Shown piece after piece: positions 52,211 through 57,403 of a stretch of 64,000 nt of DNA. The translations under genes and the position numbers were made by a program. The stretch comes from Spongiibacter sp. IMCC21906. GTDB lineage: Bacteria; Pseudomonadota; Gammaproteobacteria; Pseudomonadales; Spongiibacteraceae. Under the pieces are notes generated by a model. The model saw nothing but the letters and a program-made list of their open reading frames with translations. It was not told the origin of the DNA and did no database searches. Positions within the stretch are counted from its first letter, which is position 1; every line of letters starts with the position of its first letter. Location: NCBI RefSeq assembly GCF_001010805.1, contig NZ_CP011477.1, positions 2,185,001 to 2,249,000 of the forward strand. Direction: 5' to 3'.

Positions 52211-53322
52211 TGTTCGCTCTCTTTTTTAAGATATCGACTCAAGCCCTCGCCCACTAAAGACATTCGCCAATCAGGTAATGAATCTGGCCATGCAGCCTCT
52301 CTTACAATGTATTCGATATCGCGTTTTTTCATCAGCAACTCAGCAGGGAGATTCGCCTGTTCAGCACAGTCCTGCACCACGCTGCGCAGGCTTTTAAACT
52401 TTCGCATATCATCGCCGCCCAACGGGGGCGCCAAGTTAGCAGGCAGCACACTGCGGTCATCTTCAGCCAAGGCTTCTGACACCATATTTAAAATCAGCTC
52501 GCCATGGTGCCGTACGATCTTTGACGACACATCTTTAATGGCATTGAGCTGGATGCTATTGGCGGGTTGTTGGCGAGCAATTTCAAAGCAGCTATTGTCT
52601 TTCAGAATACGGCCGCGGGGAATATTTTGTTGCTGGGCTTCGCCCTCACGCCATTCACACAAACGCTGTAAAAGCAGCAGGTTTTTACCCCGTAACTTCC
52701 AAGCCGTTTTAATGCGTTGATAATATTGTGCGGAGCCTGGTGCATTGCGCACATTGTCTAACATTTGCTGACATTCATCATGCCACCATTGCAACCGCCC
52801 CACTTCTTTTAAGGCTTCAACAAGCGATACATATACCGACTGCAAATACTCAACATCCAGCGCGGCATAACTGCATTGCCGCTCGGTTAATGGTCTCTGT
52901 AGCCAGTCGGAGCGGGTTTCGCCCTTTTCTACATGCTCACCGAGACAGGCTTCCACTAAACGCTGGTAGCTAATACCAGAACCGTAACCAGCCAAGCCTG
53001 CGCCAATTTGAGTATCTAATATCGGCGTGGGAATACAGCCCAACAGGCGCTGAAACACTTCTAAATCTTCGCTGCAGGAGTGCAGCACTTTAGGGATGCT
53101 AACGTCTTCAAACAACGCGACCAAGCCAGACCATTCATCGATGGTCAGGGGGTCTATCAAAAATAACTTTCCGGCCACGCCAATTTGGATCAAACCGGCA
53201 ATCGGGAAAAAAGTATCGGTGCGGATAAACTCGGTATCTACTGCGAGAAAACTTGCAGAAGTCCACTCCTGACAATACCGAGCCAGTTCACTGTTGCTGC
53301 GAATGTAGTGGTAATCAATCAA
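52207..53322 (-). CDS. rnd: Ribonuclease D
   Basis: RNase D trims 3' ends of tRNA and other stable RNAs. The 371-residue protein carries the DEDDy exonuclease residues in [24 protein letters not shown] and YAALDVEYL, followed by an HRDC domain (residues about 205-290). The only usable start is TTG 53322, since an in-frame stop lies six codons upstream. It has AAGGGCGG just before it and overlaps the recR end by 8 bp. Confidence 0.93.
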
Positions 53323-53914
53323 TGCGTCGCCGCCCTTTCATTGCGTGGGCCAACGTGCCGCTGTCCACGTATTCTAATTCGCCGCCCAACGGCACACCGT
53401 GGGCAATACGGCTCACCGTAATGCCCAATTTGCGCATTTGTTCAGTAATATAATAAGCCGTCGCTTCGCCCTCGACAGTAGGGTTGGTGGCCAGAATAAG
53501 CTCCTCAACACCTTGCTCTTTAACCCGCTGCACCAACAGGTCAATGCCGATCTCTTCCGGACCGATGCCGTCAATGGGCGATAAATGGCCCATCAACACA
53601 AAGTAATGACCCCGGTAATCGCCACTGGCTTCAAATGCAGCCACATCAGCTGGTGACTCCACCACGCAAATCAAACTGCTGTCGCGCCGGGCGTCACTGC
53701 AAATTTTACAGAACTCATCTTCTGTCAGTGTACGGCAGCGCTGGCAATGGCCGACTTTTTCTACCGCTTCTTGCAGAGCTTCAGCCAAACGTAGACCACC
53801 GTTGCGGTTACGCTCTAGCAACTGAAAGCTCATGCGCTGGGCGGTTTTTTGACCAACCCCCGGCAAACACCGCAACGCATCGATCAGCTCGTCGATTATC
53901 GGGCTATAACTCAT
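53315..53914 (-). CDS. recR: Recombination protein RecR
   Basis: RecR helps load RecA at gaps through RecFOR. The 199-residue protein has an HhH motif ([20 protein letters not shown]), a C4 zinc finger ([16 protein letters not shown]) and a TOPRIM domain ([13 protein letters not shown]). Length is standard. It follows ybaB by 1 bp in the conserved dnaX-ybaB-recR operon. Confidence 0.96.
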
Positions 53915-53915
53915 T

Positions 53916-54236
53916 TCAAAATGGCATCTTGAAGCCGGGGGGCATATTCATGCCAGAAAACATGCCGCTGAGCTTATCTTGATTAGTCACTTCTACCCTT
54001 TTAACGGCGTCATTAACGGCGGCAGCTACCAGGTCTTCCAGCATTTCTTTATCTTCACTGAGTAGCGTTGGGTCGATTTGTACCCGGCGCACATCGTGGC
54101 GCCCGGTCATCGTCACCTTAACCAAGCCCGCGCCAGCCTCGCCCTGTACTTCGATATTGGCGGCTTCTTCTTGGGCTTTTTGCATCTGCTCCTGCATTTC
54201 AGATGCTTTTTTCATTAATTCGTTGAGGTCTTTCAT
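53916..54236 (-). CDS. ybaB: YbaB/EbfC nucleoid-associated protein
   Basis: This 106-residue DNA-binding protein has an N-terminal coiled-coil helix rich in glutamine and alanine ([21 protein letters not shown]) and a beta-sheet core ([18 protein letters not shown]). The family binds DNA as a dimer. Its ATG overlaps the dnaX stop by 4 bp. Confidence 0.94.
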
Positions 54237-56416
54237 CGTCCTCTCTTCTCCTGATATTCACCGAGTTTTACTGAGCCATCTTCCAGCTCGGCGTTAAAAT
54301 CTGTCATTAATTGTTGGACAACCGGATCACCCAGTATTGCCTGCGTGGTTTCATGCAAACGTTGTTCAAGCTGCCGCTGCCGGTAGGCCGCAGGCGTTTC
54401 TTCAGCAACCTCACCAATATCAATTTTAACCTGTATTTGGCGTTCAAAATACGTACTTAATGACTCAGCCAGTCGCTCGATATGACGTGAATTCAACAAG
54501 GCGGCGTTAGATTGATGGATACAAAAATTGATATGCCCTTCACCGAGACTTTGAATCTGGCAGTGCGAGGCGACACTGCCCAGCATGCCCGGCAGTTTAA
54601 AGCGGCTAAACTGCTCACGCCAACTGGTAGTGTTTAATTCATCCCAAGACAAGGGTGACGTATATACCTCATCGCTTGATGAAGACGGAGCCACAGCCTC
54701 CATCGGTGCAGCTGGCGGCGCTTTCATGGACTCAGCTAAAGATTCTGTTTGAGGAGGCGCAGCTGATGGCCGAGCTATGCTGTCAGGCTTTGACGCAGAA
54801 TGCTGCTGATGCAATTCACCCAACGGGGGAACATCCGGCTCAAAGGCGCCCTGCTCTTCTTCTTTGGTCTCTGTTGTGATGGTCGCTGACAAAGCCTGTC
54901 GAGCGGCATCAGCCCCAGACAATGGCGGTGTTGCGACATGATGAGACGAAGAATTGTATTCTTCCCAAGGCGGCAGTTCGTCGGAAGATGAACCCAGCTC
55001 GACCGAGGGCTCAGAAGTCGACGCAAGTGACACCGGTGACGCAGAGGTTTGCGCAGGCGATGCGGGGCTTGGCGTCGACGCTTGGGGGGCTGGAGCAGTT
55101 TGTTCTGGCGCTGCGGTCTGGGCTGGAGAAGCAACCTGAGAAACAGCCGCTGGCTCATCAGAACCCTGATCCGATATGTCTTGGTTCGATATACTTTGGC
55201 TCGACATGCCTTGATTTGGGCTTTGGGACACCATCGCCTCCCGGCGATTAGGCTCCGGCTTTTTTGCCGATGCAGCAGCCTCCGCTGCAAGCTGATCGCC
55301 GGGTAATGCCCGCTGTGGCGGGTGAGCAACGCCAGCTGGCATAAAGGCCAACATCCGTAGCAACAGCATCTCTAATGCCGCCCTAGGATCTGGCGACAAA
55401 CCAAAATCTCGCCGACCTGCCAGCGCCATTTGATAAAAAAACTGCACATCTTCAGCGGGCAAACTACCAGCAAGGTCCAGCAATCGTTGTTTATCACCCA
55501 AGCTGTTATCAATGCCATCGGGGACAAGCTGTGCCAATGCAAGACGATGAAGAACGCTAAGCAGTTCATCAACCACCCCTGCCGGGTCCACGCCCAGCTC
55601 CAAGGTGTCGGCAATGGTTTGCAAAACCAATGATGCGCTCCGCTCATTAAGGGCCGCAATTAAGCGATAAACCGCATCGTGGTCTATTGTGCCCAGCATC
55701 TGCCGAATTTCTGGCTCAGATAACTTGCCCGAACCAAAGGCGATACCTTGATCCGTCAAGCTCAAAGCATCCCGCATACTGCCATCTGCAGCTCGTCCCA
55801 ACAGCCAAAGCGCACCGTCATCGTACTGAATCATTTCCTTTTCGAGTACGATTTTGAGGTATTCGACCACTTTTTCTGGACTCAAGTTTTTCAGCGAAAA
55901 CTGAAGACAACGAGATAAAATAGTCGGCGGAATTTTTTGCGGATCGGTAGTAGCTAATAAAAATTTAACGTGTGGCGGTGGCTCTTCCAAGGTCTTCAAC
56001 AAGGCATTAAAACTGCTGCTACTCAGCATGTGCACTTCGTCTATAAGGTAGACCTTATAGCGGCCTTGGCTTGGGGTGTATTGGACGTTATCTAACAGCT
56101 CGCGGGTATCTTCTACCTTGGTACGAGATGCTGCATCCACTTCAATCAGGTCGACAAAGCGGCCTTCGTTAATCGCTACACACGACTGACACTGGCCACA
56201 GGGTTCTGAACTAACGCCGGTTTCGCAATTCAGGCACTTGGCCAAGATCCGTGCGATGGTGGTTTTGCCCACGCCGCGAGTACCCGTAAAAAGGTAGGCG
56301 TGATGCAGGCGGTCATGATCCAGCGCGTTGATCAATGCCTTCAAGACATGATTTTGGCCCGCCATTTCACGAAAACTTTTCGGGCGCCACTTTCGCGCCA
56401 ATACCTGATAGCTCAT
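54233..56416 (-). CDS. dnaX: DNA polymerase III subunits tau (and predicted gamma)
   Basis: DnaX is the clamp-loader ATPase. From ATG 56416 (AGGA upstream) the tau form is 727 residues. Domains in order are AAA+ with Walker [10 protein letters not shown], zinc site [27 protein letters not shown] and SRC; then the collar; then a low-complexity linker rich in Gln, Ala, Ser and Pro (residues about 390-600); then the tau-specific domains that bind DnaB and the polymerase. A programmed -1 frameshift at codon 386 is predicted to yield a 389-residue gamma. The first 17 codons of the longer frame (to 56467) are unsupported. It lies downstream of the SRP RNA gene. Confidence 0.96.
55233..55283 (-). 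promoter_or_regulatory. dnaX programmed -1 frameshift signal
   Basis: On the minus strand a Shine-Dalgarno-like GGAGG (55283-55279) lies 13 nt before the slippery heptamer A-AAA-AAG (55265-55259), which is in the correct phase of the dnaX frame. A 6-bp perfect hairpin ATCGCC/GGCGAT (55248-55233) starts 10 nt after it. In the -1 frame the next codons are GCC GGA GCC TAA, so translation would stop at 55250-55248. Confidence 0.85.
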
Positions 56417-56564
56417 CAATCGCATCCTAATTCTGAAGCCGCAAGAATACACTAGGGCTCTCAGCACATAAACAAAGACGGTGGAATAGCTTGCTAAGGA
56501 TTACTCAGGCCAACAAATAAGCGCGGGGATGAACGTACAGAGGATGTAAAACGGAGGGAGTTTT

Positions 56565-56678
56565 GGGTGGCAGTCCAACCAGCCACACCCCGGCACACGA
56601 GTCGATAACTACCGTTGCTCCCTTCCGGGCCTGGCGGGGTTTGCTATCTATCGTTGCGAGGGGACCGGAAGGACCACC
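56565..56678 (-). ncRNA. ffs: 4.5S RNA of the signal recognition particle
   Basis: The minus strand contains the conserved SRP domain IV hairpin: the GGAA tetraloop in CCCGGAAGGGAGCA, the asymmetric internal loop, and flanking CTCGCAACG and GTGTGCCGGGGTGTGGCTGG as in E. coli 4.5S RNA. The ends GGTGGTCC and GGACTGCCACC pair to close a rod of about 114 nt, the bacterial small-type length. The RNA binds Ffh to target membrane proteins. It lies upstream of dnaX on the same strand, as in Pseudomonas. Protein frames crossing it are spurious. Confidence 0.94.
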
Positions 56679-56688
56679 GTCGAACACC

Positions 56689-56748
56689 TTGAAAAGACTC
56701 GCTTTTCAACGCGGGCGCTATTGTCGTAGAAAGCCTACTTACATGCAA
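56689..56748 (-). promoter_or_regulatory. ffs promoter and leader hairpin
   Basis: On the minus strand a -35-like TTGCAT (56748-56743) and -10-like GACAAT (56725-56720) are separated by 17 bp. They are followed by GCGCCCGCG, a GC-rich discriminator typical of stringently controlled stable RNA promoters. Between this and the mature 5' end is an 8-bp hairpin TTGAAAAG/CTTTTCAA (56709-56689), perhaps a processing signal. Confidence 0.5.
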
Positions 56749-56785
56749 GCTACTACGACGACTAAAGCATCAAATATACGACTCC

Positions 56786-57403
56786 CTAAGGCTGGGTAGC
56801 TGAATATCCAGGTGGAAACTCAGCCAAAATAGCCGACACTGTCTCCAAAACATACAACCTGCGCTCTTCAGGGGTAGATAAACGAGGCTGGGAACGCTTA
56901 GCAATACCGCGCCAAATCAAAGACCGGCTCTCAGGGTCGATAATATCAATAATTAAGCGGTTCTCGGTGTAGTTACGTACCCACGTTTGATTTTGGTGAA
57001 AAAAGTACGGGTCGCCATAATAACCAAAACCGGGGCGACGGAAACAGTGATAACAAGGATAGTAACCAAAATGGTTATTCCAGGCACCAACGTTGTCGAC
57101 CGCTATCTTGTCTTCAAGCCCATTGTGGTAGGTCACCAGCATAGACGCTTTTTGCGGATCAGCGACTTTTTTAAAACCTCTTGCAGCCAACTGAGAATCC
57201 ACAGCCCCCTGAATACGTTGACGCACCAGATCATTATTGGCTTCCGGGTCATCTGGCTTCAACTTGTTATCTTCCTTGGGGGGCAGCCACGCGTAGCTAT
57301 TCAACCCCGAAAAATCATAACCCGGGGCATAATCGGTACTGACTGGCAGCCCCGAGCAGGCCGCCAGCATAACTGCTACAAAAATTGCTAATAACGCTTT
57401 CAT
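56786..57403 (-). CDS. DUF4136 domain lipoprotein
   Basis: This 205-residue lipoprotein has a signal peptide and lipobox (LLAIFVAVMLAACSG). The family opening is DYAPGYDFSGLNSYAWLPP, followed by a DUF4136 domain with RIQGAVDSQLAARGFKKV and SLIWRGIAKRS. Ala/Cys/Ser at the lipobox, with serine at +2, predicts outer-membrane sorting through LolCDE. ATG 57403 has GAGGAG 8 nt upstream; the frame's extension to 57430 is unsupported. Function unknown. Confidence 0.85.
   Translation of the reverse strand: MKALLAIFVAVMLAACSGLPVSTDYAPGYDFSGLNSYAWLPPKEDNKLKPDDPEANNDLVRQRIQGAVDSQLAARGFKKVADPQKASMLVTYHNGLEDKIAVDNVGAWNNHFGYYPCYHCFRRPGFGYYGDPYFFHQNQTWVRNYTENRLIIDIIDPESRSLIWRGIAKRSQPRLSTPEERRLYVLETVSAILAEFPPGYSATQP

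Follow-up and report, generated by a model that had tools for sequence, protein, structure and literature searches.

A predicted E. coli-type -1 frameshift site in dnaX of Spongiibacter sp. IMCC21906 and the patchy occurrence of such sites in Pseudomonadales

The dnaX locus and its predicted recoding elements

The window, by which we mean the whole stretch of 64,000 nucleotides analysed here, belongs to the 3.48 Mb genome of the marine bacterium Spongiibacter sp. IMCC21906 and carries dnaX on its minus strand. In the 0 frame the gene runs from an ATG at 56416 to a stop at 54233 and comprises 727 codons. We preferred this ATG to a GTG at 56467, which would give 744 aa, since DnaX proteins presumably begin with MSYQVLARK. 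The best named relatives of the gene are found in Zhongshania species (7 of 9 loci in one scan). Just upstream lies a small bacterial SRP RNA gene (RF00169, 72.8 bits, 56574..56670, minus strand), and two short ORFs of the same strand, which we take to resemble YbaB/EbfC and RecR, occupy 53315..54236 (minus strand) directly 3' of dnaX. The features of the gene and of its two predicted readings are the following.

54233..56416, minus strand: dnaX, tau subunit, 727 aa, 0 frame (ORF and Pfam)
DnaX residues 20-178: clamp-loader ATPase, PF13177 (Pfam)
DnaX residues 183-230: lid, PF22608 (Pfam)
DnaX residues 233-357: domain III, PF12169 (Pfam)
DnaX residues 596-716: domain V, alpha-binding, PF12170 (Pfam)
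55279..55283, minus strand: internal Shine-Dalgarno GGAGG, 13 nt 5' of the heptamer (sequence)
55259..55265, minus strand: slippery heptamer A_AAA_AAG, Lys-Lys codons 385-386 (sequence, counted from ATG 56416)
55248..55250, minus strand: -1 frame stop TAA (sequence)
55226..55256, minus strand: predicted 3' stem-loop, 12 bp, UA bulge, GGGA loop (folding, z -1.94, base-pair probabilities)
55248..56416, minus strand: predicted gamma reading, 389 aa, 386 frame-0 codons followed by Ala-Gly-Ala-TAA in the -1 frame (sequence)

The initial annotation had described this place as a programmed -1 frameshift cassette composed of GGAGG, a spacer of 13 nt, an in-phase A-AAA-AAG at codon 386 and a -1 stop after Ala-Gly-Ala, and all of these elements are confirmed in the sequence. 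The heptamer is in phase and falls in the linker that follows domain III, thus ahead of domain V as placed by Pfam, and the spacer (55278..55266) falls within the range of about 10-14 nt that characterises SD-like stimulators. After a slip the -1 frame reads GCC GGA GCC TAA (55259..55248), that is, a stop three codons on, and the product ends before domain V. The predicted lengths of 389 residues for gamma and 727 for tau likewise check: gamma would hold the complete domains I-III and about 30 more residues without domains IV-V, and tau the domains I-V.

Among the tRNAs found there is one tRNA-Lys gene, with anticodon UUU, and no second close tRNA-Lys-like sequence was found; since no tRNA-Ile was labelled, this list may be incomplete. 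The sole tRNA-Lys of E. coli pairs rather weakly with AAG, according to an excerpt of PMC5009743.

The core of the downstream structure, at 55248..55233, is a stem of 6 bp (AUCGCC/GGCGAU) with the loop GGGA, separated from the heptamer by 10 nt. This agrees with the initial annotation, but the predicted fold is larger (12 bp) and nearer (2 nt) than was proposed. When folding starts at the base that follows the heptamer, GCC/GGU and GGA/UCC pair beneath the core, and the stem extends to 12 bp, interrupted by a 2-nt bulge and a single unpaired base, at -19.1 kcal/mol, against -19.7 kcal/mol for the 54 nt after the heptamer in E. coli. A bulged form of 9 bp would start 5 nt after the heptamer. 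The -1 stop TAA falls within this predicted stem-loop. In a shuffle test the extended stem reached z -1.94, with 11 of 200 shuffles equally or more stable. Because its outer pairs are only partly populated in the base-pair probabilities and the other folding windows at the locus reach only z -0.26 to -1.49, the hairpin taken by itself does not clearly exceed chance; marginal against shuffled sequence (z -0.26 to -1.94), it was dropped as stand-alone evidence.

Conservation in the genus and its sister genus

We compared the locus across a sample of 18 genomes of the genus, which share ancestry. The heptamer A_AAA_AAG lies in phase in the linker in all 18 (codons 382-401), with none in either of the two other linker phases and none 5' of the linker in 19,440 nt of these genomes. 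A loss of the heptamer or of the -1 stop in close relatives was looked for, and neither is lost in any of the 18. The -1 stop follows at 2-8 codons in every locus. It lies within five codons in 17 of the 18 loci as compared with 39% of control positions, a contrast which, like the other genus/control contrasts given here, overstates the case since genomes of one genus are not independent.

An SD-like tract, 4 or 5 letters long, is present 7-19 nt upstream of the heptamer in 18/18 genomes. Pairing with the anti-SD peaks at 11-13 nt upstream, with a mean of about -9 kcal/mol against about -0.2 kcal/mol at controls, and within 9-14 nt all 18 loci reach a pairing energy of -6 kcal/mol or lower, compared to 5% of control positions. 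For these energies we used the genus profile and the distances 9-14 only; the control energies of the order at distances 15, 16, 21, 22, 24, 25 and 30 were corrupted by overflow values. Folding downstream of the heptamer is more stable than at control positions of the same linkers, with a mean rank of 0.13 within each locus's own linker, where 0.5 is expected (18 loci). Several separate features of the cassette are retained within the genus while the linker sequence between them changes fast.

These data bear on the possibility that the heptamer is a mere spelling of Lys-Lys and the frameshift an incidental noise without function. The bare string is not rare, since the window holds 25 copies where 19.8 are expected, about the number foreseen by chance, and we dropped this count as evidence; moreover, a single Lys-Lys in an unconstrained linker could be plain inheritance within the genus. 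Against this stands the codon preceding the heptamer, which varies (GTA in 11 loci, GCA in 3, GAA in 3 and ACA in 1) and yet ends in A in 18/18, as compared with 23% of linker codons, and no second Lys-Lys pair occurs anywhere in the 18 dnaX genes. The SD tract and the near -1 stop are likewise kept, and the in-phase excess recurs in the order, where linker heptamers are in phase in 42 genomes, as opposed to 2 and 0 genomes for the two remaining phases. A functionless spelling is thus very improbable. As far as the sequences tell, it is the phase, the place and the conservation, rather than the heptamer string, that go beyond chance, and this conservation of phase, SD tract and -1 stop in relatives supports the programmed -1 frameshift cassette first proposed for dnaX.

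In the sister genus, which belongs to the same family, both loci (L042, L043) keep the in-phase heptamer, with -1 stops 6 and 12 codons on, so that neither stop (0/2) lies within five codons, and the SD tract is weak or absent. The downstream fold is very stable in both, with z -3.12 and -6.29. The stimulators of frameshifting may trade off, as the poor SD and the very stable fold of these two loci suggest.

Proposed mechanism and relation to known systems

We read the dnaX site as a programmed -1 ribosomal frameshift of the E. coli type, with a probability of about 0.9 on the evidence of sequence comparison, and the Spongiibacter site is very probably functional. Weighing against this reading are the marginal hairpin of the window, the lack of a match to the Rfam model RF00382, the 33 of 85 order loci with neither cassette nor A-run, and the later stops and poor SD tract of the sister genus. 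The mechanism is taken over from E. coli, where it is established (PMC5009743). The ribosome would decode Lys-Lys on A_AAA_AAG while the stem-loop ahead holds it back and the pairing of GGAGG with 16S rRNA behind it pushes toward the slip. Both tRNA-Lys would then move back by one base and pair anew with AAA AAA, and the slipped ribosome would terminate three codons on in the -1 frame, yielding the 389-residue gamma. Unslipped ribosomes would complete the 727-residue tau, giving two proteins from one gene, and gamma would presumably enter clamp loaders without the polymerase-binding arm. The elements, their phase and their conservation are seen directly; that it is ribosomes which slip, and in what fraction, we infer. 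For E. coli dnaX an efficiency of about 50% is given in PMC5009743, and other published figures reach 70-80%; at the Spongiibacter site tens of percent would be expected, its structure being weaker than that of E. coli.

The site resembles E. coli dnaX in its in-phase A_AAA_AAG after domain III with an upstream SD-like tract, in a bulged downstream stem-loop (predicted in Spongiibacter), in the one tRNA-Lys found and in a truncated product without the alpha-binding domain. It differs in that its heptamer occupies codons 385-386 as opposed to 429-430, its -1 stop follows after 3 codons instead of 1, and this stop sits inside the predicted stem-loop. The equivalent linker position claimed by the initial annotation thus holds as regards the linker after domain III, but not as regards the codon numbers. 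Since these positions differ, we take the likeness as one of type, and the two sites may or may not share descent. The Spongiibacter site is a fresh instance of a known device and not a new device.

The Rfam covariance model RF00382 had no match in the window at 53500-57000 (E <= 1) and none at E <= 10 in the Pseudomonadales loci L013, L044, L105, L112 and L127. It scores 96.8 bits on the E. coli locus L195, the sole match among the six loci tried, and was dropped as a detector (1/6). Such Pseudomonadales sites would therefore go unannotated by RF00382.

A homopolymer also allows Thermus thermophilus dnaX to produce tau and gamma from one gene, and the short product could in principle arise from slippage of RNA polymerase of this type rather than of ribosomes. 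Linker runs of A8-A10 do exist in 11 of 85 loci of the order. The Thermus run, however, consists of nine As (PMC1088944, cited from an extract) read with polymerase slippage, as opposed to six As and ribosomal stimulators in Spongiibacter; within the genus the run is A6G in 15/18 loci and A7G in 3/18, short of the run of about nine that marks the Thermus type. Polymerase slippage would also leave the SD tract and the near -1 stop with no evident role, and we consider it hardly credible at this site. The reversed dnaX of the GeneTack dnaX cluster, in which the short product comes from the 0 frame (excerpts of PMC3711429 and PMC5009743), shares with Spongiibacter a frame change that separates gamma and tau products; in Spongiibacter, on the other hand, the 0 frame gives tau and runs for 727 codons.

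We also considered that the main role of the element is to set the level of tau or to adjust how the two downstream ORFs are translated, the truncated protein being a by-product. Two same-strand ORFs closely follow dnaX and their translation could be affected by the frameshift, and the use of gamma itself is here a prediction. The truncation, on the other hand, falls just past the complete domains I-III, like that of E. coli gamma, and tuning as the main role is highly unlikely. PMC5009743 reports that E. coli gamma has a role in UV resistance and in Pol IV mutagenesis, and also that its function was controversial even in E. coli. The ribosomal frameshift that yields gamma remains our preferred reading.

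Distribution and frame-swapped forms in Pseudomonadales

According to the accessible part of a 2012 review (PMC3290774), dnaX frameshift sequences occur among all enterobacteria and most other bacteria are without them; those without a kept sequence may make no gamma, and P. aeruginosa dnaX expressed in E. coli gave tau only. Nine genera are named in the dnaX logo in the part of a 2013 paper at hand (PMC3711429), and passages of PMC5009743 and PMC4066793 ascribe dnaX frameshifting to "many bacteria". A literature search, mostly without subscription papers, found no dnaX frameshift for Zhongshania and no survey of it across Pseudomonadales.

Our order sample of 95 genomes provided 85 loci from other families, with family labels transferred by hand. 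Left out were three genomes of the own genus, three without a match (G046, G064, G078) and four with loci cut at contig ends (G022, G038, G052, G104); a second dnaX-like match in G071 stands outside the count. A class sample of 75 genomes provided 65 loci of other gammaproteobacterial orders after leaving out two of the own order, six without a match and two cut at contig ends (G119, G124).

The standard cassette is present in 37/85 order loci and a frame-swapped cassette in 2/85, while 11/85 carry a linker A-run of 8 or more, 33/85 none of these and 2/85 a linker that is too short. At least one standard or frame-swapped locus is found in 22 of 41 families. The absence of cassette and A-run from 33 loci implies that gamma is dispensable or otherwise made in many relatives. 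Longer A-runs enclose 5 of the 42 in-phase heptamers of the order. The -1 stop follows after precisely one codon, the E. coli arrangement, in 27/42 in-phase loci (6.5% of controls) and within five codons in 38/42 (34% of controls). An SD-like tract accompanies 29/37 cassettes, compared to 11.8% of the 6832 control positions taken from the linkers of every locus with a cassette, and downstream folding is again stronger than at control positions, with a mean rank of 0.18 where 0.5 is expected (37 loci). Outside the order we found the cassette in 1/65 class loci and A-runs in 10/65. In-phase linker heptamers occur in four of these 65 loci, three of them (L147, L152, L193) within runs of 9-10 As; L182 is the sole cassette of the class sample and is without an SD tract. 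In L174 an A_AAA_AAG followed by a -1 stop after one codon lies at codon 422 of 514, which is beyond the linker limit, and it is uncounted.

In the sample studied, the predicted cassette occurs widely across Pseudomonadales, though with a patchy distribution. On a protein tree of 102 loci, with the own genus thinned to 6, the recoding trait (standard and frame-swapped forms pooled, gains not told from losses) changed at least 16 times, a rough figure because the tree has low resolution, with 45 of its 99 inner branches left open and long branches flagged. We would give about even odds to dnaX recoding in Pseudomonadales being a labile selected trait, one that has moved within the linker, been lost and regained often and switched between ribosomal, A-run and frame-swapped forms. 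If this is true, the Spongiibacter site is one tip of the pattern, and the order as a whole amounts to a natural experiment on the purpose of gamma. Related species with and without the cassette could serve to ask for gamma's function, and in our view the patchy distribution and the frame-swapped genus outrank the Spongiibacter copy in interest.

The linker runs of A8-A10 without a lone heptamer are those of L073, L075, L087, L091, L101, L102, L104, L106, L108, L125 and L128. These 11 order loci are candidates for transcriptional slippage of the Thermus type.

Frame-swapped dnaX was found in 3/3 genomes of one genus (g25, family f24), namely L114/L240 in G082, L117/L239 in G043 and L241 in G188. 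In these loci a 0-frame stop lies one codon beyond A_AAA_AAG and leaves a gamma-like product of 372-377 aa, and the -1 frame is then open for 294, 254 and 244 codons. Pfam places domain V in the -1 frame of the two scanned loci (E 2.3e-8 and 2.6e-9), and the third has a homologous stretch. It is tau, not gamma, that is predicted to require the frameshift in this genus. Of the two genomes of its sister genus, that of L242 shows the ordinary form, in which GGAGG is present and the -1 frame ends at UGA, and that of L243 has a run of N at the frameshift place. Reversed dnaX is already known from other bacteria; in family f24 it is found side by side with the standard form.

On contig C218 of G188 there is a second, full-length dnaX-like gene (L244) beside the frame-swapped one, which is perhaps assembly contamination. 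In L191, from another gammaproteobacterial order, the 0 frame of dnaX ends after 396 codons just past a run of A11, and another frame, tau-like by eye, is open for 211 codons; this locus is a possible reversed dnaX acting through A-run slippage.
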